From a virus: a stretch of DNA of 20,354 bases. A program made the translations under genes and the position numbers. Position 1 is the stretch's first letter; the number at the start of each line of letters is the position of its first letter. Location: the IMG/VR virus record IMGVR_UViG_3300022198_001429, positions 1 to 20,354 of that record. One strand, written 5' to 3'. Below the pieces are notes generated by a model. That model was not told the DNA's origin, ran no database searches, and saw only the letters and a list, made by a program, of their open reading frames with translations. Positions 206 through 19,943 of the stretch are shown one piece after another.

Positions 206-1066
206 ATGCTCAAGGTGCTTGATCTGTTCAGCGGCATTGGTGGCTTCAGCCTTGGGCTTGAGCGCACTGGCGGCTTTGAGACGGTCGCATTCTGCGAATA
301 TGAACCATTCCCCCGCGCGGTGCTGGCCAAGCATTGGCCGAATGTGCCGTGCTTTCCAGATGTAAGGACACTGAAAGGATCGGACATTGACGGACCAGTT
401 GACGTTATTTGCGGCGGATACCCATGCCAGCCTTTCTCCACTGCCGGGAAGCGCAGAGGCAAGGAAGATGACCGCCATCTCTGGCCAGAATTTAGTCGGC
501 TCGTGGCTGAACTCCGGCCCTCTTGGGTCATTGGAGAAAATGTTGCTGGGCACATCAGCATGGGCCTCGACGACGTGCTATCTGACTTGGAGGGACAAGG
601 TTACGCCTGCCGGACGTTTGTTATTCCAGCTTGCGCCGTCGGGGCGTTCCATCGTCGAGACCGATGCTGGACTGTGGCCCACGCCGCGCAGTTGCAGCGC
701 AATGGCGGCGAACATTACGACAGCGGCCATTCAGAAGGCACCAGAACGGTTCAAGACGTTTCCAAACTTAGAAACCGCAATGGCGATCAAGATGTGGCCG
801 ACGCCGACGGCGCGCGATTTTCGGACAGGCAGCGCGCCAGACAGCCCGCGAATGAAGCGCAAGGCGAGGCAGGGACGGTCGCCCGACCTGAACGACGCTG
901 TGACTTGCGAGGGGCAGCATGGCTCCCTGAACCCGACGTGGGTCGAGTGGCTAATGGGGTTCCCAGAAGGGTGGACCGACTTAAAGCCCTCGGAAATGCC
1001 GTCGTCCCGCAAGTCCCCGAAATGATCGGATACGCAATTCTTGAAGCAGAGAAGGAAAAACCATGA
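206..1066 (+). CDS. dcm-like: C5 cytosine-specific DNA methyltransferase
   Basis: The 286-residue product should transfer a methyl group from S-adenosylmethionine to carbon 5 of cytosine in DNA. Family motifs occur in order: motif I DLFSGIGGFS (6-15), motif IV GYPCQPFS with catalytic Cys74, motif VI ENV (111-113), motif VIII-like HRRDRCW (149-155), and the C-terminal RLKALGNAVVPQ (258-269). The short stretch between motifs VIII and IX (about 160-240) is the target-recognition region and is small for the family. I chose ATG 206 because GGAG (196-199) lies six bases before it; in-frame TTG 194 and ATG 200 are poorer. The last four bases overlap the next start. In phages such enzymes usually protect DNA from host restriction. 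Unusually, a second gene is nested in the +1 frame over most of its length. Confidence 0.95.
   Translation: MLKVLDLFSGIGGFSLGLERTGGFETVAFCEYEPFPRAVLAKHWPNVPCFPDVRTLKGSDIDGPVDVICGGYPCQPFSTAGKRRGKEDDRHLWPEFSRLVAELRPSWVIGENVAGHISMGLDDVLSDLEGQGYACRTFVIPACAVGAFHRRDRCWTVAHAAQLQRNGGEHYDSGHSEGTRTVQDVSKLRNRNGDQDVADADGARFSDRQRARQPANEAQGEAGTVARPERRCDLRGAAWLPEPDVGRVANGVPRRVDRLKALGNAVVPQVPEMIGYAILEAEKEKP
387..1025 (+). CDS. Nested +1-frame gene inside the methyltransferase; methylase-associated protein of unknown function
   Basis: This 212-residue frame lies entirely within the methyltransferase gene, shifted by +1. It starts at TTG 387, with AAAGGA (374-379) seven bases upstream. It reads as a genuine protein: LTLFAADTHASLSPLPGS near the start, a SWLNSGPLGSLEKMLL segment (39-54), CYLTWRDKVTPAGRLLFQLAPS (64-85), two WPTP motifs (97-100 and 137-140), and LNPTWVEWLMGFPEGW (181-196) near the end. 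From memory, phage proteins with the same run of motifs occur next to or overlapping Dcm-type methylases; no function is known to me. Its WPTPTARDF is read from the same bases as the methylase VADADGARF, and its WVEWLMGFPEGW from the bases of VGRVANGVPRRV. It may be a partner of the methylase or simply co-inherited with it. Confidence 0.72.
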   Translation: MTDQLTLFAADTHASLSPLPGSAEARKMTAISGQNLVGSWLNSGPLGSLEKMLLGTSAWASTTCYLTWRDKVTPAGRLLFQLAPSGRSIVETDAGLWPTPRSCSAMAANITTAAIQKAPERFKTFPNLETAMAIKMWPTPTARDFRTGSAPDSPRMKRKARQGRSPDLNDAVTCEGQHGSLNPTWVEWLMGFPEGWTDLKPSEMPSSRKSPK

Positions 1067-5156: not shown

Positions 5157-5348
5157 ATGACTGAAGAACAGCTAGACACACTGGTCTATGAACTGACCAC
5201 CTTGCACCGCATCAACAACCCACGCGCCGTGCATCGCATCTGCGACAACGCGCGGGACGCCATCATCGAACTGCGGGCGAGGCTTGATGACAAGCCCCGC
5301 CGTGGCAGGCCGCCGAAAGTGGTTACTGAGCCAGCAGACCCGGCGTAA
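5157..5348 (+). CDS. Small protein with AT-hook-like C-terminus
   Basis: A 63-residue protein from ATG 5157, with GGAG (5146-5149) seven bases upstream. The N-terminal two thirds are helical (EEQLDTLVYELTTLHRINNP, then RDAIIELRARLDD). The C-terminal KPRRGRPPK contains the Arg-Gly-Arg-Pro core of AT-hook DNA-binding motifs, which insert into the minor groove of AT-rich DNA. It stands alone on the + strand between two - strand units, and its last 26 bases overlap the end of the convergent ejection-type gene. A regulatory role at the neighbouring dyad is an inference. Confidence 0.65.
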   Translation: MTEEQLDTLVYELTTLHRINNPRAVHRICDNARDAIIELRARLDDKPRRGRPPKVVTEPADPA

Positions 5349-7032
5349 GGCGGGCCACAGAAGGCACCGCCTGACGCGACAGCATGGACGTAAAGGACGG
5401 GTCTTGCAGCATCAGCCGCTGGGCGTAAGGCGTTCTAGACGCCGCGCCCATAACGTATGGTATTGCGAGGCCACCAAGGGCTGCCGCGCCAATTTGCTCA
5501 ACTGGAAGCCTAGACGCAGCCGCCGCTGCGCCGGATGCCAGAAACGCCTTGATGGCTGGAATGTCAGTCATAGACCTTAGCCCCCCAGACCGCACGGTCG
5601 GCAGCGATCCGATGACTTCCTCGCCAGCCAGACCCAATTCCGACATTGGCCGCAACTGGCGTCCGGGTCGCAGCACAGTCGCGCGTTCGCCTTCAATCTG
5701 ACGTGTCCGCGTGCCAAGCGCCCCCGGCGACACCAGTCCAGCGCGGTTGTCAGACCCGGTCTTGTTCAGCGAACTGGAAACCGTGCGCAGGTCGCGGTAG
5801 CGGTTGCGCGCATCCAGAAGGCGGGAATATACTGCTGGATCGGCCTGCGTGCGTGCGGCCTGCACAATGATGTCATCCAGCGTGTTGCTGACCTCCAGTG
5901 CAAAGTCCGCCGCGTCGTATTTTTCCGCGTTGGTATATCGGCTGATGTCGTTGCGCAAATTACTGCGCCACTGCTGGACCTGCTTGCCAGTAATCGGACG
6001 CCCAGACTGCGCGGCGTTGATGATGGCATCCACATACTGCGCAGCGTTCGTTGGCGGCTTTACGTTATCTGGCTGCAGTTCCATGTAGTTTTTCAGCGAC
6101 TGCTTGGCCTTCTCAGCCAAGTCAAGCCTTGGCACGGCAGACAGCGCGGCGGCTTCGTCAAAGACCTGCCCAAGCTGGTTTTCAAGCGCGCCAAGTGCCT
6201 CGCGGGTCGGGCGGGGCGCGCTGGACCCAAGACGCTGCATCACGGCCTTGTTGAATGACAGGACAGCTTCGCGACCGGGGTCTTCCACGCCCTCCAGACG
6301 CATCAGGCGTTCAGCACCAAGGCGCTGCCCGGCAGTGATGCCTGTCGTGCCTTCCCGTTCCAGAATATCCACCGCTGCCTGCCGTGCGCTGCCCGGCTCA
6401 TAGGCGCGTGCGCCAGATGTCAGGAAATTGCGAAGACCGTATTCGGTGAGGTCCATCGCCATGGGTGTTCCAAGTGCAGCGGCAATGCGTGCCATATTCT
6501 GCGCACTCTCGCCACCGCCAAGCGCTTCAACGGATTGGCCAGCAGTCTCGCTGGCTACTGCCGGGATGACAGTGCCACGCACAACTCGATCCATGACCTT
6601 GGCAGGGCCGATGGGCAGCGCAGCGCCGGGCAGGAATTCACCGACAGTGCCAGCATAACCACCAGCGCGGGTCATCGGCTGGTATTCCATTGGTCGCTGC
6701 GCAGCTTCAGGCAGCATCGCTTTCAGCGTTTCGGCACCAGACTGCCGAGGCTCCACGTCAGCCCCGACGATGCGGCGGCCAACCCGCGATGGCAGGTCAA
6801 GGATGTCCTGCCCCATGCCCATCAGGCTGGCTGTGCCGCGCATCACGCCACCAGTGCCTGATCGCGCGACATCCTCTGCCGCACCAGCGGGCGTGGCCGT
6901 CATGCGGTTGATTTCCGCCGCGAACATGGATGCGTCAGCCCGCGCTTGGGCGCGCCCTTCAGCCGAGATGTTTTCATTGCGGGCCGCCGCGTCTGCCTTC
7001 AGCAGCGCTTCCTGTAGTTCCTGCAGCGTCAT
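5323..7032 (-). CDS. Large internal virion / DNA ejection-type protein
   Basis: A 569-residue protein. It opens with an acidic helical region ([20 protein letters not shown]), continues through Ala/Gly-rich, membrane-compatible stretches (about 130-200, for example [20 protein letters not shown]) and long helices, and ends with further hydrophobic Ala/Gly segments (about 490-535). This composition and its position after a transglycosylase and an S74-tailed protein match the ejection proteins of podoviruses, which are packed in the head and form a conduit across the envelope. Family assignment is by context; no catalytic motif is seen. ATG 7032 overlaps the upstream stop by four bases. It contains MEYQPMTR, sharing 15 bases with the transglycosylase gene. 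Confidence 0.7.
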
Positions 7033-8675
7033 TTGTAGCCCCCTTGCGCCCGCCTCAATGCGTCCTGAACCCCAGTGCCTGCGGCGGCTGGTGCTTGCCT
7101 CTCGGAGATCATCAGCCCAAGTGCCTTTTGCCCTTCAGGCGACAACTGATCGCGCAATGCGCGAAGCGTGCGCAGCGTGGCGTATGGGTCGCCCTCCATG
7201 TCGTAGGTGCCGCCCTGCCGCTGGATCAGTTCAATGTCTTTGTCCGTCAGGCTGCCTGTGAAACCGCTTCGCTTTGCCTCTGCCACGCTGCCCATGGCCG
7301 CGATTGACCCCAGCTGCTTTACGGCAGAGGATGCGCGGTTGTAGCTTTCTATTGGCACCCCAAGTGCGTTTGCAAATGCACCGGCCCTTGCGCCCAGTAC
7401 GTTTGCACTTTCTCCCTGTTCAAGGAATGACAGCGCATCAGCCAGAAGCGGTAGCGTCTTGCTTTCTGTTTCAGCCTCTTTTTCCACAGCGGCCACTTCC
7501 GCAGCTTGCACTTCGCGCTCCTTTCCAGCCCGTTTCAAGAGGTCTTCCACGAAGGGCGACAAGTCGCGCAATTCTTCTGGCGCAAGAGACTGGAATTCGG
7601 AAATCATTCTGGCGCGATCTGCAGCCGGAATGTCTTCGTTGTAAAACAATTCAACCGCCTCTTGACGGTTCTGTGGTCGCCGCATTGCAGGAGCCGCAGG
7701 CGGCGCGGCGGGCGTCACGGCTGGTGCGCCAGCCGCAGGCAGCGTGGACACCTCAACGGATGGCGTCACGACCGGCGAGACGCCGGGTGCAGTGACTGCC
7801 GGGGCTGCCGGGGCTGCTGTGACGACTGGTGCAGCAACCGTCGGCTGCCCACCCATTGCCTCTGCCACTTTCTCTGACAGCATCTGTTCCAGCCTGATTG
7901 ACGCTTCATTGGGGCCGGAACCAATGCCGACGCGGGCAAGACGCGTGGCTTCAGCATTCGCCTGCTGAATTTGCGTCAGGGCTGTCACAGTGTTTACAAG
8001 GTTCGTCTGTATCCCCTGCCGCCGCAGCCGTTCCCGCTCCTTGGCCGCTTCAAACCCGCCCAGCGCCCGCTGGAAATACCCACCTTCTTGGCCCTGCAGG
8101 GAAGCCGCAGCATCGCGCAGCGCGGCAAACCCCAGCATGGTGCGCTGGGATCGGGACAGGTTGGCGAAGGGGTCTGTTTCCACGCTGGCTGCCGTGTCTT
8201 CCTGCATGCCCGGAAAGAGGCGGCTGAAGAGGCCGCCACGCGGCTGCGGATCAGGTGTCATCGTCATTGTGGTCGATCCTTGTGTGCTGACACGCGGCTG
8301 GTATTCCATGCTGGTGCGCCCCATGACCTTGGGGACATAAGCCTGCGTTTCCTTGTATGGTGGGATGCCGCCGTATTTCTGAACAGCGCCCGGCCCAGCG
8401 TTGTAAGCGGCCAGCGCCAGTGGCCACTGCCCAAACGTATCATACTGCTGGCGCAGGTATTTAGCGCCACCCATGATATTCTGCGCTGGGTCATAGGGGT
8501 CAACGCCAAGTTCTTTTGCCGTTCCCGGCATAAGCTGCGCAGGTCCAATGGCACCCGCGTCGGACACAACATCTGGCCTCCAGCTACTCTCCTGCTGGAT
8601 CAGGCTGAAGAACAGGTCTTGCGGGATGCCGTATTGCGCCGCCGCTGCCGTTGCTATGTCCTGCAGGCTACTCAT
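7029..8675 (-). CDS. Virion-associated lytic transglycosylase (SLT domain) with ejection-type tail
   Basis: A 548-residue protein. Residues 1-120 form a clear Slt/MltE-type lysozyme-like domain: SLIQQESSW with catalytic Glu29, [13 protein letters not shown] (41-53), [12 protein letters not shown] (87-98) and QAYVPKV (111-117). Such domains cleave the glycan strands of peptidoglycan, here most likely to open a local hole for genome entry. A helical middle follows, then a Pro/Ala/Val linker (about 275-340) and a helical C-terminal region. Only the first fifth is enzymatic; the rest is probably structural. The start overlaps the upstream stop, and the stop overlaps the next start, by four bases each, consistent with coordinated translation of the ejection proteins. 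Confidence 0.88.
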
Positions 8676-9658
8676 GCCGCCGCACCAGCCTCCGCATTCA
8701 GACCTGCGTAATCGACCCGCAGGTAGCCGTCGGCGCCGCGCCGCACCAAGTGCGGGTGCGTTTGCATCAGTTCGTCAGCCATGACGCCATAGGTTGGGTG
8801 GCCTTCCACGCCGATTGCGCGCGCGGTGTTATTCCAGTCCCATGTGTAATAGCTGATGCCGTTGCGTCTGCCTGCCGGGCGGATATTTACCTTCAGGCGG
8901 CGGTCGGACGGTATCATCGACAGGGCCTGACCAGCAGACGCGACCGCACCCAAGATTTGCCCAAAGCCGGGTCTGCTGCTGGTCGTCTGCGACTGGCCAA
9001 TGGCACCGGCTGTACCGGCGGCCCCGCCCGTCAGGGCCGAGAGGATGCCAAGGTCGTAGCCTTGCTCTCGCAGGAACTCATTAAATCGAGCCTCTAGTTC
9101 AGCCTGATTTGTGGTCTGCTGCAATGCGCCAATCTGCTGCAATCCACTTGCGGCAGCGCCAGCAGCGCCCATGCCCATTTCCATCTGCGCCATAGTCTGC
9201 GCAGCGGCCTGATCGTACCCCTGCCGCATCAGATCGGCGGTCAGCTGGTTCAGGCCGATGTCATAGGCCGCTTGGCTTTCCGCCTCGACCACGCCGCGCC
9301 GGATGTTGCCAAATGCACCAGCCTTGGCAATGTCAGACTGTTCCTGCACGCGAGATATGTCGCGCTGTCGCTGCGCCGCAGCAAGGGCTGGGTCAAGCAC
9401 GTTGGTGGTGAAACCAGAAAGGTTCTGCTGAATGCGCTCTTGGTACTGTTCCGGCGTCATGCTGGATAGCGCGCCGATTTGTTCGTAGTACGGCTTGGCC
9501 GCCAGACTGGTCTCGGTCACGCCAGCAATGAAGTCGCCAGTGTATGGCGTGAATGGCTGTTCGGCAACGCGCGTGCCGACCGAGCCGATGGCACTATACA
9601 ACGGCTTGAGTTCGGACGGGATTTCAGCCTTGCTGGTCGTCTTTGATGATCCGCCCAT
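8672..9658 (-). CDS. Internal virion protein with C-terminal S74 autochaperone-like domain
   Basis: A 328-residue protein from ATG 9658; GGAG lies seven bases upstream, and the longer frame to 9739 is rejected. Residues 1-225 are Ala/Gln-rich and helical (for example [20 protein letters not shown]), typical of podovirus ejection proteins. The C-terminus begins SDRRLK (251-256) and continues [14 protein letters not shown] and YLRVDYAGL, the signature of Peptidase_S74 intramolecular chaperones. The Ser251/Lys256 spacing matches the autocleavage dyad known from endosialidase tailspikes. That domain normally ends trimeric tail fibres; here it is on an internal-type protein, leaving about 78 residues after the presumed cleavage point. 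The stop overlaps the transglycosylase start by four bases. Confidence 0.8.
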
Positions 9659-9659
9659 G

Positions 9660-10076
9660 CTACAACTCCATTTCGTACAGGCGCGCAGCTTCTTTCCAGC
9701 CATTGCGCTTTGCGTATTTAGACCATCCCAGCCGACCATCGGCAGAAATAGTGCTGCATTTCATGTCGCGGCCAAACCGCTCCATCATCTTCAGCGCAGC
9801 CTCGCCCCATTCAGGAACGTCGTACCCGGCGACGTGCAGAATTTTGAGAACTAAACTGCGAGGGTGCTTCTGGACTTCAGTCATAATGACCGCCTTCAGC
9901 TTGTCCCCGACGACCACTGACCAGAGTTGTGCTGACTCGGTCCGCAGTTCGTCCTTCATATCTTCTAGGCCGACAATCCGGCTGATCCGGCGTTGCGACC
10001 TTTGCAGCAAGGGGGCCACGGCATCCCAGACATCTTCGATGTTTTCAGCCGGTATCATCCCTATGCGCGGTATCAT
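9660..10076 (-). CDS. GNAT-like virion-module protein
   Basis: A 138-residue protein. The central pattern QLWSVVVGDKLKAVIMTEV, followed by RSLVLKILHVAGYD, a long helix EWGEAALKMMERFGRDM, and WSKYAKRNGWKEAARLYEMEL resembles the strand-helix order of the GNAT acetyltransferase fold. A conserved acetyl-CoA loop is not obvious, so activity is doubtful. T7 gp13, in the same genomic position, is reported to be GNAT-like, which supports an assembly or ejection role. GAGG lies four bases before ATG 10076; a second ATG at 10058 is possible. Confidence 0.6.
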   Translation of the reverse strand: MIPRIGMIPAENIEDVWDAVAPLLQRSQRRISRIVGLEDMKDELRTESAQLWSVVVGDKLKAVIMTEVQKHPRSLVLKILHVAGYDVPEWGEAALKMMERFGRDMKCSTISADGRLGWSKYAKRNGWKEAARLYEMEL

Positions 10077-10099
10077 AATACCTCATCCTTCAGTTGGTG

Positions 10100-10756
10100 T
10101 CACCCGTGCAACCTTGTGATGGCAATCGTGGACGCAGGGGCCGCTGGAGCGAAGGCTGTAGCGGCAGAGGCGTCTAGGTAGCCAGACGTGCTATCCACCG
10201 CCCACATGGCCTCCAGATAGTCCCCAGCGCTGAAATTAAAGATCGCCGACCGGCTGACCACCAGCACAGACCCATTCTGATGCAGGGCGTTCTTCATGGT
10301 CGAGCCTGCCACGTTGGAGCCGTTGACGCGAGGCCAGAACCAAAAATTCACGGTGCTGGCCGATGTGGACGCAATTTGTGCGGAGAATGACACCATGTAC
10401 TCTCCGCCCTCCGCAAAGACCAGCCGCGAGGCTGGCGTGCCATTTGTGATCCCGTTGGACACACTGGCCGTATATGTCAGGGCGTAGGCCGTGTTGGCCG
10501 CTGCAGCCGTCTGGTTTGACGTGATGCCGCCGCTGTAGTTGCCATCTTCCAGAACGACCTGAACCCATTCGCCACCCTTGGACACGACCGGGTAGCCGTT
10601 GACCTCATCCCACAGAATGATCCCATTTTCTGACGGGTTGCTGTCTGTCGCCTTGAACTGCAGCCGGGGCCGCTCGCGCAGCATGTAACGCACAAGGCGA
10701 CCACCCCATGCCTTCCAGTCGTCACCGATTGGCTGCGGTATGACGGGTGCGCTCAT
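10100..10756 (-). CDS. Virion protein with C1q/TNF-like beta domain
   Basis: A 218-residue protein. The N-terminal 35 residues (MSAPVIPQPIGDDWKAWGGR) are like an attachment peptide. The rest is beta-rich with a jelly-roll-like pattern (ALTYTASVSNG, MVSFSAQIAST, VNFWFWPRVNG, SAIFNFSAGDYLEAMW, ASTIAITRL), as in the heads of some tail fibres and decoration proteins. ATG 10756 overlaps the preceding stop by four bases. It is probably a tail or fibre accessory protein; the fold call is by eye. Confidence 0.6.
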   Translation of the reverse strand: MSAPVIPQPIGDDWKAWGGRLVRYMLRERPRLQFKATDSNPSENGIILWDEVNGYPVVSKGGEWVQVVLEDGNYSGGITSNQTAAAANTAYALTYTASVSNGITNGTPASRLVFAEGGEYMVSFSAQIASTSASTVNFWFWPRVNGSNVAGSTMKNALHQNGSVLVVSRSAIFNFSAGDYLEAMWAVDSTSGYLDASAATAFAPAAPASTIAITRLHG

Positions 10757-12264
10757 CTCTTGCCTGCCGCCACAAGTTCAATTCTCGGAATGCCCCAGCG
10801 CCACGCACCACCACCCGTGGATGTCACGCGCATTCTAGCTTGGCGACCAGAAAAACGAATGTCAGTCGGGTTGGCCATCGAATACGGCCCATAGGTCCGT
10901 TCAATTGAATCCGGATTGAGGTTTGTGTTCGGGTAGTTGCGCGTCTTGAACGTCACCTCAACGCTGCCCTGCGTGCGTTCGTCTGGTATAAGCTGCAGGG
11001 CGTGGAACAGCGTCTCCCCGCCGCCAAGCGATGCCGGGCCGCTTTCCGCGTAAACCTCTTGGCTGTCGTAATTGTAGCCAGTTTCGTGGTCATACACATT
11101 GCCTGCGCCATTGGCGTACAGAGGCTGCTTGAACACACCACGGTCAACGCCAGCCGTCCGGGACATCTTGCCAATCAGCCAGTGGTTCTCCTTGTAGTCG
11201 TAGGCGACATAGCTGTCGATTTCGCCGTCCGATGACGATCCGCTGACATAGAACCACCAGACCTCGCCGTTCTGGCCGTTGGACACCGCCCACGCCTTAC
11301 TGATCTGGTCGGTGTTTATATCCAAAAACACATAGTCAGACACCGCGCAGGGCAGTTCTTGGACGCTGGAACCGTCAAAGCGGAAGAACCCCTTCTGGCC
11401 CATCCAGAAGACCCCAGCGTCGGTTGATGCGACAGCCTTTCGGGCGATCAGGCCGCACGCCTGCCCGACCCGTTCGAAATTGTAGACAAACGGCGGGCCT
11501 GTGTAGACAGCCCGGTGGGCGTCAATGTCAGTCAGGATCAGCGCCTGTCCGGTCGTGCGGACCGCTGCCATGATCTGCCCATTTGTTTGCAATTCTTGGC
11601 TGCCAGCTTGGTTGGTCGCGGCGGCAGTCCACAGGGTGTTGTCTTCTTGGTCGCACCAGTCGATCCGACGTGGATCGCCGCCAGCGCCAAGCGCAAAGAT
11701 GATGCGTTCTTCTGTGACCAGCAGGCCGGTGCAGCCGGTCGGCGCGTTGGTGATGGCTGCAGCAAGTGTCACACTTGGCGATACGCCAAGCTGCCATTCA
11801 TACAGCTTTCCATCCGCGCTGCTGCACGCAACCAAATACTCGCCCCAGTTGTCCAAATCCCAAGTGGTCGCCTCGGAATATGTGCCGGTGCTGCTGCGCG
11901 CCACGCCGTACAGGCCGGTGCCGTAGAAACCGCTCCCGTAACCTGTAGCCAGCGCGGCGTCTTCCAACCCCGCCGTCAGACCAGTCGGTGTGATGTCGTA
12001 GACGGTTCCGCCGGATGTGGCCACCTTTAGCGCGTTGTAGGTGCCGCCAGCGATCCAGCGGCTGCCACTAAGGGCTTGCCACGCATGCATGCCACGCGGC
12101 GGCGCCGAAAACATGCTGGCGATCCGCTCGCGCCAGCCGCCAACCGGGCGCAGGCTGCCCTCGCGCCAGCGCACCAAGCTGCCATCCCGCCAACGGCCAG
12201 ATGACTGCAGGTCGGTGCCGTTTCGGACGAAGCCGGGAGGGATGTCGAGAGGGAGCAGCGGCAT
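10753..12264 (-). CDS. Tail hub/nozzle protein, P22 gp10-like
   Basis: A 503-residue, beta-rich protein. It opens MPLLPLDIPPGFVRNGTDLQ and continues SSGRWRDGSLVRWREG, an N-terminus I associate with phage packaged-DNA stabilisation or tail-nozzle proteins. Repeated four-stranded blade-like units follow (GLYGVARSSTGT, WGEYLVACSSADGKLYEW, ERIIFALGAGGDPRRIDWCD, AGVFWMGQKGFFRFDG, GEVWWFYVSG, YVAYDYKENHWLIGK), suggesting a beta-propeller. Such proteins plug the portal-adaptor channel after DNA packaging. It follows two adaptor-like genes in the operon. The assignment is from pattern and context. Confidence 0.68.
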   Translation of the reverse strand: MPLLPLDIPPGFVRNGTDLQSSGRWRDGSLVRWREGSLRPVGGWRERIASMFSAPPRGMHAWQALSGSRWIAGGTYNALKVATSGGTVYDITPTGLTAGLEDAALATGYGSGFYGTGLYGVARSSTGTYSEATTWDLDNWGEYLVACSSADGKLYEWQLGVSPSVTLAAAITNAPTGCTGLLVTEERIIFALGAGGDPRRIDWCDQEDNTLWTAAATNQAGSQELQTNGQIMAAVRTTGQALILTDIDAHRAVYTGPPFVYNFERVGQACGLIARKAVASTDAGVFWMGQKGFFRFDGSSVQELPCAVSDYVFLDINTDQISKAWAVSNGQNGEVWWFYVSGSSSDGEIDSYVAYDYKENHWLIGKMSRTAGVDRGVFKQPLYANGAGNVYDHETGYNYDSQEVYAESGPASLGGGETLFHALQLIPDERTQGSVEVTFKTRNYPNTNLNPDSIERTYGPYSMANPTDIRFSGRQARMRVTSTGGGAWRWGIPRIELVAAGKR

Positions 12265-12266
12265 CT

Positions 12267-13013
12267 TCAGCGCAACTCCGCCCAGCCAGCGATGTTTGTC
12301 CCCGTTACGCGATAATAAATTTGATCTGGGACGATTACATTGTGCGGGGCTTTGTCACCGCCGCTGATACCACTTGAAACCGTTTTCCACGTCGAGCCAT
12401 CGCTGCTGACTTGTACATCGATGCTGGCTTCCGTTGCCACGTTGACCTGAATGGGTCGTCCAGTGGTGTTCTGGTAAGTCGTGTTGCCTGATCGCGTGAT
12501 GTCGCCGTCTGCAGTAGTTTGCCACGTCTGGTTGACGCCGATGCAAAGCGCATTAATTTGGCTGGCAATGTACGCCTTGACGCTCTGCTGCGTCGGCAGC
12601 TTGGATGCGCTGTCCGACACCATATCGTCTTCATCAATGGACAGGGCGGTGAACGCATAGGTGCTGATGTCGGTCATCGCGACCTGCACCATAGTTCCGT
12701 CGTCATTCGCAACCAGACGATCCGCGTCCACAAGCGTGGTGGCTGTGGCTGCGGTTCCGCCGTCTAGAATGTTGATCTCGGCGGTCGTGGCCGTCACGCC
12801 GTCCAGAATGTTGATCTCGGCGGTCGTGACTGTTGCCCCGTCCAGCAGGTTCAATTCAGCGGTGGTCGCCGTGATGCCATCCAGAACGGCCAGTTCCGCG
12901 CTGTCCAGCGATCCAAGGAACGTGGACAGGTTCGACCAGTTTGTGTTTAGGGTGTTGCCCCAAGTGTCCTCAGACCCGCCAACGGTCGGGGCAGTGTACG
13001 AAAAAGTAGCCAT
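12267..13013 (-). CDS. Tail fibre protein with LDG-TATTAE repeats
   Basis: A 248-residue protein. The N-terminus (SYTAPTVGGSEDTWGNTLNT) is typical of phage fibres that begin with a short base-attachment segment. Four 13-residue units follow (44-95), of the form LDGVTATTAEINI, a repeat found widely in phage tail fibres, where it forms a trimeric shaft. The C-terminal part (LPTQQSVKAYIASQIN, then the beta-rich VQVSSDGSTWKTVSSG) is probably a receptor-facing or knob domain. It likely contributes to host adsorption. Confidence 0.75.
   Translation of the reverse strand: MATFSYTAPTVGGSEDTWGNTLNTNWSNLSTFLGSLDSAELAVLDGITATTAELNLLDGATVTTAEINILDGVTATTAEINILDGGTAATATTLVDADRLVANDDGTMVQVAMTDISTYAFTALSIDEDDMVSDSASKLPTQQSVKAYIASQINALCIGVNQTWQTTADGDITRSGNTTYQNTTGRPIQVNVATEASIDVQVSSDGSTWKTVSSGISGGDKAPHNVIVPDQIYYRVTGTNIAGWAELR
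12729..12884 (-). repeat. 39-base tandem repeats in tail fibre gene
   Basis: Four consecutive 39-base units encode LDGx-T-x-TTAExN-type 13-residue repeats. Two of them share a long identical stretch around TTGATCTCGGCGGTCGTG (top-strand orientation). The fourth unit (LDGGTAATATTLV) is degenerate. Confidence 0.85.
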
Positions 13014-13048
13014 GTCTCATCCTCGAATGCTTGGCCTACAATGCCATT

Positions 13049-13696
13049 TTACGCCGCTTCTGTCCATGTTTCAGAGTTTTCCGCAGCAGGCGTCCAGATT
13101 TCTCCTGTGGCTGCCTGTTCGGTCCACGTCTCGGCGGTGAAAGGCGCGTCGTTCCAAACCGACCCTGTGGTCCCGACATCAGGCGCGCCCGTGGTGATGC
13201 CATCGCCAAGAAGGTTGTGGACCTGCTGCGCCTGCGCCGCACCCAGCGTCGGGCGGCCTGCGGTGATCGCGCTGGGTGCAAAAACGTGAATGACGACCAT
13301 CGTCGAGGCCGCCACAGTAGGCTCGGCTGTGGTGATGCCAGTCAGGGTCAAGACCTGCGGCCCAGAGGCCGTAGAAGCGCCCACAGACGGTGCCGCTGCC
13401 GTGATCGCCGTGGCGGTCAGGTCGTGGTCCTGCACGATGCTTGGGCTGCCGACGGTCGGGCTGCCAGCGGCAATCGGATCGGCGTTGAACGTCCCCTCTT
13501 CCGACATCGTAATGCCGGGGACTGTCGGGCTGCCAGCGGTGACCCCAGTCAGAGATAGGTCGTGATCCTGCGCCAGCGACGACGCCCCGACTGCTGGGGC
13601 AGCGGTGGTGATACCGCCGGCTGTCAGCGCGTCTACGCCCGCGATCAAGCCATCATCGGCAAGCGGCGCGGCTGATAGTGGGGCGAAGCCAAGCAT
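13049..13696 (-). CDS. Repeat-built virion protein
   Basis: A 215-residue protein made mainly of six consecutive 23-residue units (27-164) plus part of a seventh, with the pattern xxITAGxPTVG followed by about 13 variable residues often containing QDHDL. Alternating hydrophobic and Gly/Pro/Ser spacing suggests a beta-solenoid or fibrous structure. The C-terminus has three Trp-Thr units (ETWTEQ, EIWTPA, ETWTEA). It lies between a tail fibre and a tail assembly chaperone gene, so a fibre or decoration role is likely. I recall similar repeat proteins in marine phage genomes, without a function. Confidence 0.65.
   Translation of the reverse strand: MLGFAPLSAAPLADDGLIAGVDALTAGGITTAAPAVGASSLAQDHDLSLTGVTAGSPTVPGITMSEEGTFNADPIAAGSPTVGSPSIVQDHDLTATAITAAAPSVGASTASGPQVLTLTGITTAEPTVAASTMVVIHVFAPSAITAGRPTLGAAQAQQVHNLLGDGITTGAPDVGTTGSVWNDAPFTAETWTEQAATGEIWTPAAENSETWTEAA
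13205..13618 (-). repeat. Six 69-base coding repeats
   Basis: Six in-frame 69-base units encode 23-residue repeats. The protein pattern is better kept than the DNA, but segments such as GGGCTGCCGACGGTCGGGCT and similar GGCTGCCAGCGG stretches recur. Confidence 0.8.
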
Positions 13697-13700
13697 CTAT

Positions 13701-14141
13701 TTACTCCGGGGGCGTGGGCCAAGTAACTGAATACGGGAAGCCTGCTTGACCTGTTATATCACGAAGTTGCTGCCGGTAGGTAGACCAAGCGGTCTTGCTG
13801 TCAGCAGACAGCGGGCTGTCAGGTAGCTGGGTCCAATCGCTTTCTTGCAGCAAGTCATCCCGGCGCGACCGCACGTTGCGCTCAGCATCCGCTTGCGGAC
13901 GTTGCTGAACAACATATGGCAAAGACCAGTTGCCGACAGCATCCTGTTCAAAACTGCCATCAACCAGCGTTGTCGTTAACGGATCGTAGTCAGGGCGATC
14001 AGGCCGTGTGTACGGATACACGTCCCACTCAGCCAGCAGAGCGTCAGTTGGTTCTGCCGGAAAGGATGTGTTGGGGTTGTCAGACCGCAACTGACGCAGA
14101 GAGTATTTCTCAGGAGATCCGTTGGTTATTTTGATATACAT
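13701..14141 (-). CDS. Phage tail assembly chaperone-like protein
   Basis: A 146-residue protein. The C-terminal part (RNVRSRRDDLLQESDWTQLP, DSPLSADSKTAWSTYRQQLRD, FPYSVTWPTPPE) matches the recognisable pattern of the phage tail assembly chaperone family often found beside fibre genes (RxxLLxxSDWTQLPD, then WxxYRQxLRDIT, then WPxxP). It should help fold or attach tail fibres and may not stay in the virion. AGGAGA lies seven bases before ATG 14141. The neighbours on both sides are fibre-type genes, which agrees. Confidence 0.8.
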   Translation of the reverse strand: MYIKITNGSPEKYSLRQLRSDNPNTSFPAEPTDALLAEWDVYPYTRPDRPDYDPLTTTLVDGSFEQDAVGNWSLPYVVQQRPQADAERNVRSRRDDLLQESDWTQLPDSPLSADSKTAWSTYRQQLRDITGQAGFPYSVTWPTPPE

Positions 14142-14152
14142 TGGTCAGTCTC

Positions 14153-14746
14153 CTATGCGGCAGGGATGCGAACAGTGAAAGCGCCCCAAGTGTTGTCAGA
14201 ACCGCTAAAATTACCGGGGTCCTCCGTCGAACTTGGTGAGAGGTAATAACTACCAGCAATACGACCGCTTGTTGTAAAACCAGAATATCCAGCAGGTCCA
14301 GCCGAAAAACTAGACCCCCCATCAAGCGCCGCGCCTGCGAAAGCCCCATCTCCTGAATTAAAACCAGTTAGAGGGGGTGGATCAGGAGTTGTACTACTAC
14401 CAGATGCAAAAGCGAACGTCGGGGCAACGGACGTGCTATTCCCCGAAAATGCAAAAAGCATACCCCTGTTAATGGGAACTGTTATGCTGCTTTCGCCATA
14501 CGCATAAGCGAGTGCGACATAAAAACTATCGGGTTTATATTCGTATAGGACCGTCCAACCGGAAGGTACATCGTCGCCGGGACCATAATTGCCCCCCTGT
14601 GCTTGCATGTAAATAACAAGGTCGTTTGCGCCTACACCGGTCAGAGAGATGGTCCCAGCACCAGCAACACTATCGACGAATGTAACTGCACCACCGCCAC
14701 CTGCACCAACAAGTCCACCAGCGCCTTGAATTTTATGCCATAGCAT
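14153..14746 (-). CDS. Gly/Ser-rich tail fibre-type protein
   Basis: A 197-residue protein from ATG 14746, which overlaps the upstream stop by one base (TAATG). The N-terminus [20 protein letters not shown] leads into a beta-rich domain (TFVDSVAGAGTISLTGVGAN, SFYVALAYAYGESSITVPIN) and a Ser/Gly-rich end (DGGSSFSAGPAGYSGFTTSG). It resembles minor fibre or receptor-binding proteins. The gene looks less GC-rich than flanking genes such as the hub gene, as is usual for exchangeable host-range genes. Confidence 0.6.
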   Translation of the reverse strand: MLWHKIQGAGGLVGAGGGGAVTFVDSVAGAGTISLTGVGANDLVIYMQAQGGNYGPGDDVPSGWTVLYEYKPDSFYVALAYAYGESSITVPINRGMLFAFSGNSTSVAPTFAFASGSSTTPDPPPLTGFNSGDGAFAGAALDGGSSFSAGPAGYSGFTTSGRIAGSYYLSPSSTEDPGNFSGSDNTWGAFTVRIPAA

Positions 14747-15939
14747 TACGAACCATCCCCAACCAGAGCGCCGTAAAGCGTGGTGGACACTTTCCAAAGC
14801 GCGACGACAGTGTACCCAGTGGTCGCCAGCGTAGGTGCAGACCCGGCGTTGTTGACCCATGTGATGGTCGGCCAAGTAATTGTATATGCCGTGCCATCGT
14901 CAATCATCAACGTGATCGCCTCGCCAGCGGACAGGCTGTCAGTTGGCGTAGAGTTGCCACTAAGGGTCCACGTTTGGACTGTACCGTTGGCGGGGTCCAG
15001 TGCAGGAGTGGTGCCTGATAGAGCATAGACAGTTTCTACGACTGCATTACCAAAGGAGACGGGTCCAGTTACGTCCAGCCCGCCACTTCTAGCCATAGTC
15101 CATTTAGAGTTGGCTTCAGAAAAGCTTATAGCGGCAGTACCGTTAGATTTATTAATTACAAAGTCACCTTTGTCGTTAATAACGCTATAGTATTCTGTAG
15201 AGGCAGCGTCATTAACAGCGTCAGTGTAAATACGGAGTTCACCACCAGTACCGTCAGCAGAGCCGCCGTAGATTTCTAAAAGACCCTTTGTAGTGTCATT
15301 TGTACCAACAGTGATATTCCCAGTTACATCCAGCCCACCACTCTGCGGCATAAGCCACTGAGAGGCGCTGTAGTCGTAAAGGATAATGTCTATGCCACTC
15401 GAACCCTCAATATAAAAGTCCTCCGCGACGGCTTGAATTTTATAATAATCGGTGTTGGTGTCATGGTCAGCAGCGGTGTATAATCGCAGCGCGCCCCCGT
15501 TACTACTCCCCGTGCCCTGGCCGTATATAAACATCTGACCGAATGCGAAATCGTTTAGGCCGATTTTAATGTTGTCACCCGCAGTAACGGTCACGAATGA
15601 CGGACTGTCGGTCGTCGCCACGCCCTGATCCATGTCAGCGGCGTTCTGCAAGTCTCCCGCTGCTGCCGTGACAAAGACCACCGCGCTGCCAGACAGGTTC
15701 AGCAACGATCCGGTGCTGCTTTCGTCCAGCGTACGCGACAGAGTGGTGCCGGTCGCCGTGTAGGTTCCAGTGCCGATTTCCCACGCCGTTCCATCCTCGA
15801 TGGTGTAGCGGACGGTCTGGCCGTCAGTCACGCCTGCGTCAGCGAAGCTTTGATACCCACTTTCCGGGGTGCCCAAGGTTATAGTGCCCGTACCTGTAGT
15901 GGTCGTGGCGACTTTCGCACGATTGACAAGCGTGACCAT
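14746..15939 (-). CDS. Main tail fibre protein with duplicated shaft domain
   Basis: A 397-residue protein. Residues 1-100 ([40 protein letters not shown]) match the N-terminal domain found on many phage fibres. Residues 123-207 and 208-292 are two 85-residue copies of one domain, each ending SGGLDVTG. The C-terminal region ([48 protein letters not shown]) is a beta-rich tip of a kind recurrent in phages. Hand counts give about 33% GC at 15121-15180, against about 62% at 15721-15780 and 58% at 14941-15000. It probably mediates receptor binding. Confidence 0.78.
15064..15573 (-). repeat. Two 255-base coding repeats in tail fibre gene
   Basis: Two consecutive in-frame segments encode 85-residue copies (residues 123-207 and 208-292). 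DNA similarity is strongest at the ends, for example CAGTTACxTCCAGCCCxCCACT near 15069 and 15325. The middles have diverged but keep the pattern IYG, GG-L-IYT, EYYS/DYYK and SGGLDVTG. Confidence 0.75.
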
Positions 15940-15950
15940 GTTTTAGCCTC

Positions 15951-16400
15951 TTACGCGATGCGGATGATAGCGTTCGAAGCATCCGCTGTTGGAAACAGAA
16001 TCTGGAAGTCACCAGCCGTAGAGGTCTTATCGGACCCAAAATCAAGCACAGCAACAGTATCTGTTGTGCCTGTACCGCCGCCAGTGGTGGTGTTGTAGAT
16101 TAACGCGCCACGGGCCGTGATGGTTGCTGACGTAAACGTAATGTCCGCGAAGTCCGTGAACGCTGTGGTGCCGCTGGTAGTGGGCGTGATGTTTGTCAGG
16201 GTTCCACCGCCCGCAGAATACGAACCGGAGTTGGCAACCTCGTTGGTTGCCGTGTAGTCGGTAGTCGCTGCGGTAAAAGACGCACTGTTGGTATACAGAG
16301 CGATCTTGAACGTGTGGCCGGTGGAAGCCGTGAAGTCGTGCTTGGCCTGAAGCAATTCCTGCTTGAAGCTGGTGCACATGAAGTTGCCGGTGAACGCCAT
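15951..16400 (-). CDS. Conserved phage structural protein
   Basis: A 149-residue protein. MAFTGNFMCTSFKQELLQAK, then HTFKIALYTNSASFTAAT, ITFTSATITARGALIYNTTT, AVLDFGSDKTSTAGDFQI and a terminal ASNAIIRIA form a pattern I recognise from many environmental phage genomes, usually beside fibre genes. It is beta-rich and of virion type; the exact role (fibre adaptor, decoration or baseplate-like) is not known to me. Confidence 0.7.
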   Translation of the reverse strand: MAFTGNFMCTSFKQELLQAKHDFTASTGHTFKIALYTNSASFTAATTDYTATNEVANSGSYSAGGGTLTNITPTTSGTTAFTDFADITFTSATITARGALIYNTTTGGGTGTTDTVAVLDFGSDKTSTAGDFQILFPTADASNAIIRIA

Positions 16401-16685
16401 TTAAAGTCTCCTGATAAGTTCGGCCAACTCCGGCTGGCCTGCATCCATAAGCGCATTATACACAGTTGTGCGATCACTGTTAATCGCCTGCTTCAAGTAC
16501 AGCATTATGAGGTGCTGCACCGTACCACGAAACGCTTCCGCCTGCTCTCGGATTGGCGCAGGAGCGGAGGCGGATACATGCACGATCTTTTCAACGCACT
16601 GCGCAGCCAACTCTTCCGGCGTGAACCCACGGCGATCAGTGGTTCTGACGCCAACAGGACCTATCTCCATCATGCCAAGACTCAT
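16401..16685 (-). CDS. Small conserved phage protein, helical
   Basis: A 94-residue protein. After MEIGPVGVRTTDRRGFTPEE it is mainly helical (LAAQCVEKIVHVSAS, IREQAEAFRGTVQHLIMLYL, TTVYNALMDAGQPELAELIR). It overlaps the upstream adaptor-like gene by four bases. The neighbours are structural genes, so an assembly or minor virion role is likely; no function is recognised. Confidence 0.65.
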   Translation of the reverse strand: MSLGMMEIGPVGVRTTDRRGFTPEELAAQCVEKIVHVSASAPAPIREQAEAFRGTVQHLIMLYLKQAINSDRTTVYNALMDAGQPELAELIRRL

Positions 16686-17332
16686 TGCTTAGGCCTTATA
16701 AGTTGACCGAAGTCATATTCGTCCGTCGTTTCCTTTGCCTCTCCAAGCTGCTTCAGGCCCATAAGGCTTTCGTTAAACCGCTTGTCGTAATACGACAGCA
16801 GGTCCTGTTCTCCTTTTAAGAAAATATACGCCTCTATCAAACAAGCATACAGTAGAGACAGGTCTGCATTAGTGCTCAACCACGTTGTGCCATCCTCTGC
16901 ACCCGCCGTGATGCTTGCCGGGCGATACAGGTAGTGCAGTTCCGCCGTATAAGAAGCATCTGTCGTAGGAGACAAAATAAAGTTGTCTACATCAAACTGC
17001 GCGTAGTACCGCGGAGATCCCGTGTCCGAAGGACCCGGGTTATAGGACTGCACAAAGCTCACCGACTTAAATCGTAAGAATGTCTTGTCCCCAGAAGCCG
17101 GGGTGAAACTAAGAGACCATGGGGACAAAAAGTCCGAGGGGCAGGGCAGATACTGAGATCCGCTGGATAATGTGGTCGTCGCGTTTTTACGGAACAAACT
17201 AAGTTGCACGCTCTTGAGAATACGTTCTTCTGCAGATCGAATAAACAGCGGGACGTTTGCAACAAAGGTCGTCTCCGTTGTTTCAACGTAATCCTGAATG
17301 GCCTGCTTTAACTGCGCGTATGTGTAGCTCAT
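16682..17332 (-). CDS. Adaptor-like head-tail connector protein (SU10-adaptor type)
   Basis: A 216-residue protein. The order is an N-terminal helix (TYAQLKQAIQDYVETTETTF), a second helix with FIRSAEERILKSVQLSLFRK, a beta section with YLPCPSDFLSPWSLSFT and RYYAQFDVDNFILSPT, and a C-terminal helical part with LSLLYACLIEAYIFLKGEQD and YDKRFNESLMGLKQL. This is the layout of adaptor proteins that ring the portal and attach the tail. Its start overlaps the previous stop by four bases. A second protein of nearly the same length and similar layout lies just upstream. Confidence 0.7.
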   Translation of the reverse strand: MSYTYAQLKQAIQDYVETTETTFVANVPLFIRSAEERILKSVQLSLFRKNATTTLSSGSQYLPCPSDFLSPWSLSFTPASGDKTFLRFKSVSFVQSYNPGPSDTGSPRYYAQFDVDNFILSPTTDASYTAELHYLYRPASITAGAEDGTTWLSTNADLSLLYACLIEAYIFLKGEQDLLSYYDKRFNESLMGLKQLGEAKETTDEYDFGQLIRPKQ

Positions 17333-17631
17333 GTGTTTACCACCACCTGTCCTACCTGACCGACCGCTCGCGGACGATCAAGGCGAGGTGCCTCTACTGT
17401 GGGGACGCCCACATAAACCCCAAGAGATTCCGGGGTGTCGGGGCGCGGATTGTACAAGGCTTGCGGATCAGCCTTTACGTGCTTCGGTTCCAGTTGCGGA
17501 TGCTTCGGCTCAAACTCGTCTGGGCCAACAAGCAGCCCGTTCCACTCCCTGCGCATGTCTCGCAAGCGGTAGCGGAAGCCTGATCTGTCTGAGATGCCGT
17601 AGGCACTATCCCCGCGCGCATATCGGGCCAT
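17329..17631 (-). CDS. Conserved small phage protein
   Basis: A 100-residue basic protein. SGFRYRLRDMRREWNGLLVG, then PDEFEPKHPQLEPKHV and DPQALYNPRPDTPE, form a pattern I recall from other environmental phages in the same neck-gene neighbourhood. It lies between the two adaptor-like genes. A minor virion or connector role fits, but nothing proves it. Confidence 0.68.
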   Translation of the reverse strand: MARYARGDSAYGISDRSGFRYRLRDMRREWNGLLVGPDEFEPKHPQLEPKHVKADPQALYNPRPDTPESLGVYVGVPTVEAPRLDRPRAVGQVGQVVVNT

Positions 17632-17634
17632 GTA

Positions 17635-18288
17635 TCACCTCCGTCCCGGAACAAGCCGGAGAGGAACCCGCTCTTCGTCCTCGTCAGCAGCCCTCTGAAA
17701 GTCTTGTTCATAGATCGCTTGCAGCGTTGGAAGCATTTGAGGAGCCCGTTTCATGCCCAGATGGTAAGCCAATCCCGACACAAGACAGGGCAAAAAACGC
17801 CACGGAACTGCGGCGGTGTTCTGCATCGCACCCGCATCTTCGATACGACGAACATACCAGTAGAGCAGCTGATCCGTCGAGTTTTCCGGAACAGGCCACA
17901 GGTTTATGACAGGGGTAGTCTGCCGGTCGTACCAGAACTGCGACGGACGGCCCTGCGTGCTCTTGGTGGGAATGTTCGCCCACTCCGAACGGCCAAGGCG
18001 TTCAATGATGTAGTCCGTGTTGTCGCGCCGAATGACCACGTCCAAAAGATCAGAGGTGCTGGCATCCAGCGTCTCCTGACCCTGACCGGTGGTCAGGGTG
18101 ATCGTACCGCGCTCCACGGTCCACAGGTTCACGCCACGATTCGCCCAGTCCGTGAACATCAGGTTCAGAGACCTGCGGGCCGTTTCAAGGTCATAACCGG
18201 AACGTGCGGGTTGACCAATGCGCTCGTACGCCTCTTCAATCGCTTCCGCGATGTCGAGATTAAATGTCCGTGTTCCTGACGTGGCCAT
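17635..18288 (-). CDS. Adaptor-like protein (P22 gp4 / T7 tail tubular A type)
   Basis: A 217-residue protein. Helices at 11-48 (IAEAIEEAYERIGQPARSGY, then ETARRSLNLMFTDWANRGVN) lead into a beta section (WTVERGTITLTTGQGQETLD, DVVIRRDNTDYIIERLGRSE, PVINLWPVPEN, LLYWYVRRIED) and then helices with FLPCLVSGLAYHLGMKRAPQ. This follows the layout of head-to-tail adaptor proteins. It should seal the portal-tail junction. It precedes the second adaptor-like gene in the operon. Confidence 0.72.
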   Translation of the reverse strand: MATSGTRTFNLDIAEAIEEAYERIGQPARSGYDLETARRSLNLMFTDWANRGVNLWTVERGTITLTTGQGQETLDASTSDLLDVVIRRDNTDYIIERLGRSEWANIPTKSTQGRPSQFWYDRQTTPVINLWPVPENSTDQLLYWYVRRIEDAGAMQNTAAVPWRFLPCLVSGLAYHLGMKRAPQMLPTLQAIYEQDFQRAADEDEERVPLRLVPGRR

Positions 18289-18297
18289 GTCTTAGGT

Positions 18298-18447
18298 TCA
18301 CTTCTTTGCTGTTTTCGCGGAACGCTTAAACGCCTTGGCTGTGGGTGCACCCTTGGTCCCGGGCTTGCGCATCTTCTCGCCCGATCCGGCTTTGATACGT
18401 TCCCGCTTCGCGTGGATGTTGGCATATAGCCCCGGTGTCTTGGTCAT
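18298..18447 (-). CDS. Small very basic phage protein
   Basis: A 49-residue protein from ATG 18447, which overlaps the upstream stop by one base (TGATG). The sequence (MTKTPGLYANIHAKRERIKA, then GEKMRKPGTKGAPTAKAFKR, ending SAKTAKK) is strongly Lys/Arg-rich and familiar to me as a recurrent small protein of environmental phages. No function is established that I know of; binding of packaged DNA or a virion role is plausible from charge and operon position. Confidence 0.72.
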   Translation of the reverse strand: MTKTPGLYANIHAKRERIKAGSGEKMRKPGTKGAPTAKAFKRSAKTAKK

Positions 18448-18647
18448 CAGCCTTGACCCATCGCCATCTGCTTGCGGGGGCTGCACATGATCTGGCCGCC
18501 CTTGGCCATCTTGACCTTGCCGCCACACTTGTATCCGGCTTTGACCTTGCCGCCACCCATGTAACCCTTGCGCATTGCGGAAAGTTTTTTCGAACCCTTT
18601 TTCATCGGTCCCTCCATGATCTGTTTGGCCATATTACCACGGTTCAT
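18447..18647 (-). CDS. Small basic Gly/Lys-rich protein
   Basis: A 66-residue protein from ATG 18647, with GGAGG five bases upstream. It is rich in Lys, Gly and Met, with two GGKVK motifs ten residues apart (GGGKVKAGYK, CGGKVKMAKG) encoded by a 16-base direct repeat. It belongs with the flanking basic proteins. DNA or RNA binding is suggested by charge only. Confidence 0.65.
   Translation of the reverse strand: MNRGNMAKQIMEGPMKKGSKKLSAMRKGYMGGGKVKAGYKCGGKVKMAKGGQIMCSPRKQMAMGQG
18511..18556 (-). repeat. 16-base direct repeat, 30-base period
   Basis: TTGACCTTGCCGCCAC occurs exactly at 18511-18526 and 18541-18556, encoding GGKVK twice on the - strand. Confidence 0.85.
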
Positions 18648-18656
18648 CGGAGCCTC

Positions 18657-18932
18657 CTACTGGCGTTCCATCGCCATAAGAATGCGGTCCGTCTTGTCCA
18701 TCAAGGCGTCAATCTGAGCCTCGATTCTACCTAGCTGCACAGCCTGCGCGGAGGCGGTGTCCCGGATCTCCTCGACCTGTATATCCAGCCGTTCGATATG
18801 TTTTTTGTTCGTCGCAATGTCCGAGGACATTTGACTGAACATCCACACTGCGGCGGCTGCTTGCACACCAAGTCCGATGAAGATGCTGATGGGAACGGAT
18901 CGGCTGAGATGCCACTGCTCTGTATGTGCCAT
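18657..18932 (-). CDS. One-pass membrane protein with coiled coil, holin-like candidate
   Basis: A 91-residue protein from ATG 18932; the in-frame extension to 18995 is rejected because it overlaps the neighbour in an unnatural-looking frame. A hydrophobic segment (14-34, VPISIFIGLGVQAAAAVWMF) follows a short polar start, then an acidic/basic coiled coil (IATNKKHIERLDIQVEEIRD, GRIEAQIDALMDKTDRILMA). This layout is common among phage holin-like or lysis-accessory proteins, but no dedicated endolysin gene lies in the window, so the role stays open. Confidence 0.68.
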   Translation of the reverse strand: MAHTEQWHLSRSVPISIFIGLGVQAAAAVWMFSQMSSDIATNKKHIERLDIQVEEIRDTASAQAVQLGRIEAQIDALMDKTDRILMAMERQ

Positions 18933-18933
18933 T

Positions 18934-19200
18934 TTAACACTTCCACCTTCTGCGGGCAGCGCAAATCCGCTTCTTCGGAGTCTTGCTGCAGTCAATGCTG
19001 TGGTCCTTCATCTGCCCCGCAGAACGAGCACAGTAGGACTTCTTGCGCTTGCCACCCTGCGGTTGCGGGGCCTTCAAGTTTGATCCGGTCGCCTTATTGT
19101 ATTTTGCACGACCCTTGGCCGTCAGACCAGCGCCCTTCGATGCAGGAAGCTTCTCACCGCGGCCCACGGACAGACTGGGGGTTTTCTTTTTTACGGCCAT
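18934..19200 (-). CDS. Basic conserved phage protein (DUF6321-like)
   Basis: An 88-residue protein. Its start MAVKKKTPSLSVGRGEKLPA and the following KGRAKYNKATGSNLKAPQPQ and GGKRKKSYCARSAGQM, ending RRRWKC, match what I remember of the DUF6321 family from marine and cyanobacterial-environment phages. It is strongly basic with four Cys. ATG 19200 overlaps the upstream stop by one base. Function unknown; its place among virion genes suggests a structural or DNA-associated role. Confidence 0.75.
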   Translation of the reverse strand: MAVKKKTPSLSVGRGEKLPASKGAGLTAKGRAKYNKATGSNLKAPQPQGGKRKKSYCARSAGQMKDHSIDCSKTPKKRICAARRRWKC

Positions 19201-19943
19201 CAGAGCGGTCCTCCATTTTTTATGAGGATCATGTCATACGCTGCAGTCACCAACGCATTATTTGTCCGCACAGAAACTTGGACGTCAATGTCCGTCTTTT
19301 CCGGAACACCGAACGGGCAGGTGAACGCATAGTGGTATTCGGAACTGGCCACCTCAAATGTGTGGCCGACAAAAAATCGGTCGCCCGGAAGCCGGTAATA
19401 GAAAGTCCCAGTGGCGTCGGCCCCGTTCTGGATGGTCATAACGCCCTGTGTCAGATAAGCCGTGTACCCGGCGGGGACTGTGTAAGTTCCCTTGAGAGAC
19501 TGGCCAACACCAGACACAATCCGAGCCACCGTCGTGGCACCTTTTAGAACATTGATTTGCCCGACGTTTGAAGACGTCCCGTTCATCCGAACCAAGTCGA
19601 TGCGCTTGAACACGGTCGAGGATGTATTTCCCGTGGGGTTTGTCAGTGTGACGGTGGTCGAAACGGGATTATAATCCGCATCCAACCCGGAGATTATAAC
19701 GTTTTTCCCCGCGTCTCCTGCGTCTGCACGGCTCACCGTTACAGTGCCCGCTGTATCCCACGCACTCCAAGGGTAAAACGTGTCGGTTACGTCCCAGACA
19801 GTTCCAGACTGGTTGTTCGACATGGACGGGACGCGCCCCTGTCGATGCACGAAAGAGTGGCCCGGGATTTGACCCCGGGCCACCTGAAGCTCAAAAGGCT
19901 CCGATGTTCCGACCTGTGAGATGGACCGGATGTCGTAAGCCAT
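19200..19943 (-). CDS. Virion structural protein
   Basis: A 247-residue, beta-rich protein. PFELQVARGQIPGHSFVHRQ near the N-terminus, then TVWDVTDTFYPW, KNVIISGLDADYNPVSTTVT, VFKRIDLVRMNGTSSNVGQI and YTAYLTQGVMTIQNGADATG form a pattern known to me from marine phage structural genes. It probably belongs to the neck, a decoration layer or the tail; the exact role is not recognised. Confidence 0.7.
   Translation of the reverse strand: MAYDIRSISQVGTSEPFELQVARGQIPGHSFVHRQGRVPSMSNNQSGTVWDVTDTFYPWSAWDTAGTVTVSRADAGDAGKNVIISGLDADYNPVSTTVTLTNPTGNTSSTVFKRIDLVRMNGTSSNVGQINVLKGATTVARIVSGVGQSLKGTYTVPAGYTAYLTQGVMTIQNGADATGTFYYRLPGDRFFVGHTFEVASSEYHYAFTCPFGVPEKTDIDVQVSVRTNNALVTAAYDMILIKNGGPL

Follow-up and report, generated by a model that had tools for sequence, protein, structure and literature searches.

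A conserved gene nested in the +1 frame of a phage C5-cytosine DNA methyltransferase, and its probable role as the second part of the enzyme

INTRODUCTION

According to PMC3404938, the motifs of the two-polypeptide C5-cytosine DNA methyltransferase (C5-MTase) M.EcoHK31I (YGGCCR) are divided such that motifs I–VIII and X lie in the larger polypeptide and motif IX in the smaller. M.AquI is likewise a natural two-chain split C5-MTase. Among phages, pairs with the same nesting as the one analyzed here have been annotated as overlapping genes, namely gp55/gp56 of Paenibacillus phage Shelly, in which the inner gene is called "g55 internal gene", and the methylase and overlapping Mte8-like gene of E. 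coli phage K1ind3, in records that state neither function nor relation to motif IX. Both phrog_363 and phrog_1008, which are separate families in their library, are labelled DNA methyltransferase, and the labels are silent on nesting. Reports of this overlap in phages were not found in the literature that could be searched, within which its regular occurrence across a large clade of phages, its single visible origin, and the constraint on two frames appear to be new.

Here, we describe such a locus in a virus record of 20,354 bases (the window), comprising a C5-MTase (frame A) and a gene (frame B) in the +1 frame relative to it (Table 1).

RESULTS AND DISCUSSION

Two reading frames on the same bases

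Frame A has motifs I–VIII, including the PCQ catalytic site and ENV, that identify a C5-cytosine methyltransferase, and matched PF00145 (7.1e-40; residues 2–215 on profile positions 1–214 of 324) and phrog_363 (8.9e-87). Its length is counted from ATG 206, while the open reading frame (ORF) as listed starts at TTG 194. Frame B is wholly nested in frame A, and the coordinates given for it in the initial annotation (212 codons from TTG 387, behind AAAGGA, to a stop codon ending at 1025) were all reproduced from the sequence, as was every motif quoted there. The AAAGGA lies 7 nt upstream of the TTG. Frame B matched phrog_1008 (2.7e-34), with no match in Pfam and none to the PDB by sequence search. 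Within the methyltransferase, a 16-base stretch (CGGCCCTCTTGGGTCA, 515–530) recurs at 1245–1260 in a small ORF (1041–1328), encoding RPSWV both times. The remainder of the record carries phage structural genes on the minus strand (5323–19943), including, besides those in Table 1, genes for virion structural proteins.

Table 1. Positions of features at the nested locus and in the surrounding record
Feature	Position	Strand	Basis or remark
Frame A: C5-cytosine DNA methyltransferase, catalytic subunit (motifs I–VIII and X), 286 aa	206-1066	+	PF00145, phrog_363, M.HhaI model match
Shine-Dalgarno-like AAAGGA before TTG 387	374-379	+	Read from sequence; SD-like 4-mer statistics over loci
Frame B: gene nested in the +1 frame (212 aa), proposed as recognition/motif IX subunit	387-1025	+	phrog_1008, open +1 frame in all loci, third-base constraint
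Core 1 of frame B (conserved; SAWASTTCYLTWRDKVTPAGRLLFQL), predicted to form a beta-hairpin and overlying frame A motifs VII–VIII	567-641	+	Highest pLDDT block of frame B model
Frame A linker in place of target recognition domain	686-955	+	pLDDT about 41-57, residues 165-250
Frame B WPTPTARDF on bases of frame A VADADGARF	795-821	+	Majority-residue frequency 0.72 (B) vs 0.42 (A)
Frame B motif-IX-like segment (LNPTWVEWLMGFPEGWTDL)	927-983	+	Profile aligned to motif IX of single-frame C5-MTases
Frame A motif X (DRLKALGNAVVPQ)	977-1015	+	Aligns to M.HhaI 297-318 (weak by itself); helices pLDDT 77-97
Lytic transglycosylase domain	7029-8675	-	Structural block
DNA ejection protein-like	8672-9739	-	Structural block
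Tail assembly chaperone	13701-14141	-	PF16778
DUF6321	18934-19200	-	Structural block

Frame B is maintained with its methyltransferase across the sampled loci

Relatives of frame B were widespread, with tblastn matches in 137 annotated phage records and at least 598 IMG/VR stretches encoding one. In all 83 viral and phage loci retrieved via frame B, it was uninterrupted in the +1 frame of a C5-MTase, and frame A itself was damaged in a few of these (L057, L059, and L060). The same register was found at 80 of 80 bacterial loci, and distant cases in Klebsiella, Salmonella, Vibrio, Pseudomonas, and Leptospira records shared it. Among sampled Pseudomonadota genomes, 22 of 398 carried frame B, at 30 loci that all had it in the +1 register of a C5-MTase; a stand-alone frame B was detected neither in these 398 genomes nor among the phage records inspected. 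Because these loci had been found through frame B, a control set of 80 contigs was fetched using only the frame A profile, with frame B absent from the query. Frame B was open across the overlap in 79 of the 80, with a WLMG-like motif in 78 of those 79.

Several loci departed from the common layout. In Mycobacterium phage Ochi17 (L169; NC_055787.1, 1028–1787), a frame change divides frame A between two annotated genes, of which gp73 has the N-terminal motifs through ENV and gp74 the later motifs and motif X. Frame B stays open there in the third frame, so that the enzyme may be in three pieces. A Roseovarius metagenome-assembled genome (OX638333.1; L085–L089) carries the nested pair five times on a single 4.5 Mb chromosome, at loci with identical match scores; these loci are either repeated prophage copies or an assembly artefact. 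In several genomes of Rhodobacteraceae and other Pseudomonadota (L230–L232 and L352–L361), the frame B ORF extends past one or both ends of frame A, with a maximum length of 475 codons, which sets it apart from most versions in phages.

To gauge chance, synonymous codons were re-drawn under a fixed frame A protein and the share of draws leaving frame B open was counted. At this GC-rich locus alone the share was 3.5%, whereas over the 83 loci, all of which are open in fact, the median was 0.15% of draws per locus. The test is conservative, since the codon pool itself avoids frame B stops. Constraint on the shared bases was measured as third-base entropy at fourfold sites of conserved frame A codons, which fell from 1.86 bits outside the overlap to 0.82 inside (P = 2.8e-8) and, at 64 independent loci of the control set, from 1.86 to 1.13 bits (P = 6e-5), with these P values being indicative, as columns were treated as independent. 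The third bases that are most strongly fixed are those under conserved residues of frame B, entropy across the motif-IX-like segment being 0–0.7 bits, while the first quarter of frame B was under weak constraint in the control set. Among relatives, third-position differences amounted to 0.54 per site where frame A is the sole frame and dropped to 0.24 and 0.19 within the overlap, with differences at codon positions 1 and 2 almost unchanged between the two parts. An SD-like 4-mer preceded the first frame B start codon at 46 of 68 loci, whereas start codons further along the +1 frame had one in 12% of cases (P = 4e-24).

The GC richness of this locus, where an open frame has P = 0.035 by itself, might suggest that frame B is an accidental ORF whose apparent conservation is borrowed from the methyltransferase on the same bases. 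We consider this extremely improbable, given that AT-richer loci are open as well, that synonymous third bases of frame A are fixed exactly at conserved sites of frame B, that frame B starts are marked by SD-like sites, and that ordinary C5-MTases have many +1 stops; it was rejected on the third-base constraint and the control retrieved with frame A only. The initial annotation had held that the two products are co-maintained, and that frequent +1 stops or normal synonymous variation among homologous methylases of the same clade would mark the nested frame as accidental. Neither was observed: apart from rare partial exceptions, same-clade homologues lacked +1 stops over the overlap, where synonymous variation was also strongly depressed. 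This comparison of homologous sequences shows that both frames are conserved coding sequences, and frame B is almost certainly a real gene. The arrangement has been retained throughout a large and old family of phage enzymes.

Frame A lacks what frame B appears to supply

The frame A profile aligned to M.HhaI residues 11–179 (motifs I–VIII) and, beyond that, to motif X alone, weakly. An AlphaFold2 model of frame A matched M.HhaI with a Z score of 22.7 (rmsd 3.1, 213 residues aligned) and was confident over about residues 1–160 and 255–283, with residues 165–250 disordered. In other C5-MTases, the region matching residues 165–250 is the recognition domain. An in-frame target recognition domain and motif IX are absent from frame A, and because its profile ends after motif VIII and the linker there is disordered, frame A alone is an incomplete C5-MTase.

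Conserved parts of frame B comprise the predicted hairpin of core 1 (LTWRDKVTPAGRLLFQL; S61, W68, and L82 invariant), WPTP repeats, and the motif-IX-like segment (N182, W185, V186, E187, L189, and G191 invariant), with variable stretches between. The WPTP repeats overlie VADADG-like repeats of frame A, which are the less conserved of the two. The motif-IX-like segment scored 26.0 against motif IX of single-frame C5-MTases, compared with 20.7 for the best of 60 column shuffles; the match spans 19–21 columns with an hhalign probability of 5%–7%, yet lies above all shuffles. Modelled alone, frame B gave a poor AlphaFold2 structure (pLDDT 60, pTM 0.24), too poor for a fold search. At 115 of 125 loci, the MGFP of frame B ends upstream of the GNA of frame A by about 26 nt, and thus motif IX (frame B) directly precedes motif X (frame A). 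The order on the DNA, motif VIII of frame A, motif IX of frame B, and motif X of frame A, is the canonical collinear order.

This collinearity would also be expected if the frame B segment were mainly expressed as a fusion, with a +1 shift after motif VIII of frame A leading into the WPTP and motif IX region as one trans-frame protein. Such an arrangement is very unlikely, as a second shift back would be needed to reach motif X, frame B has its own SD-marked start, and frame B is also conserved in parts that lie ahead of the presumed shift point, over motifs VI–VIII of frame A. We also weighed whether frame B is a regulator, inhibitor, or stability partner of frame A, or acts on host defence, and does not complete the enzyme, a reading for which the presumed interaction between the two products and the poor model of frame B leave some room. 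It is nonetheless unlikely in view of the recognition domain and motif IX missing from frame A, the motif-IX-like segment of frame B at the right place, and the precedent of M.EcoHK31I. The best explanation, and in our view a probable one, is that frame B completes the methyltransferase as its motif IX/recognition subunit. The suggestion in the initial annotation of a methylase with a specificity partner fits this anatomy, in which one chain is without a recognition domain and motif IX and the other carries a motif-IX-like segment.

We propose a single C5-cytosine methyltransferase that this stretch encodes as two polypeptides, one in each of two frames. Frame A would provide the catalytic large domain with cofactor binding (motifs I–VIII), the disordered linker, and the motif X helix. 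Frame B would have a separate internal start, TTG 387 with AAAGGA in front of it, and would yield a small subunit; motif IX would be its C-terminal LNPTWVEWLMGFPEGW segment, and its variable middle, which contains WPTP, probably recognizes the target. The two products would bind each other to form a single active enzyme, the assembly that has been reported for M.EcoHK31I. Protection of DNA from restriction is the general role of phage orphan methyltransferases, and on that basis the assembled enzyme may act as an orphan methylase guarding phage DNA against host restriction. The inferred elements of this proposal are internal initiation, dimer formation, the DNA-reading part of frame B, the site targeted, and the protection of phage DNA.

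Origin and implications of the nested arrangement

Single-frame C5-MTases with clear in-frame motifs IX and X had +1 stops over a comparable span, mostly 4–27, compared with zero over that span in enzymes of the nested clade. In a tree of 69 proteins built on motifs IV–VIII, which is unrooted, uses few columns, and draws its single-frame enzymes from a limited genome sample, nested and single-frame enzymes were split by one branch (100/97; 100% of bootstraps), although rare exceptions may exist. One protein from Companilactobacillus nodensis (L184), considered as a single-frame enzyme, proved to be nested and was counted accordingly. Its frame A runs on beyond the end of the methyltransferase, and this extension contains a DPPH motif resembling that of another class of methyltransferase.

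We infer that the single-frame state is ancestral, since canonical C5-MTases are widespread in cells, giving a direction from single-frame to nested. There is perhaps an even chance that the arrangement has a single origin, in which an ordinary one-frame C5-MTase shifted the reading of its recognition and motif IX segment to the +1 frame, with the linker of frame A and the N-terminal half of frame B then overprinted and the whole phage clade becoming an obligate two-frame enzyme. If true, the catalytic and DNA-reading subunits would be inseparable by recombination, and hundreds of database entries annotated as complete enzymes would each describe half of one. 

The locus is a well-supported example of full nesting, in which one gene of roughly 200 codons lies inside another and is kept over a very wide phage and host range, with both frames probably being parts of one enzyme. 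If phage C5-MTases of this clade are codon-optimised after cloning from the annotated frame, frame B would be lost and the enzymes may look inactive. The clade also offers a large data set on the mutual constraint of two frames.

Comparison with known split C5-MTases

The division of motifs seen here departs from that of M.AquI, which is split within the variable region and has motifs IX and X together in its second chain, whereas motif X lies here in the first chain, frame A. By description of motif layout, the pair is instead likened to M.EcoHK31I, with the same division between chains: motifs I–VIII and X are in the large chain, and motif IX is assigned to the small chain on a short match that lies above 60 shuffles and has a low hhalign probability. 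The small gene here overlaps the large one in another frame, and the small gene of M.EcoHK31I reportedly also lies inside the large gene in a different frame. The two differ in that M.EcoHK31I belongs to a restriction-modification system, while a phage orphan methylase is proposed here, and in that its recognition domain is predicted in the large subunit, at a place where the large subunit of the phage enzyme has a disordered linker. With motifs divided as in M.EcoHK31I, the locus thus belongs to a kind of arrangement that was already known.
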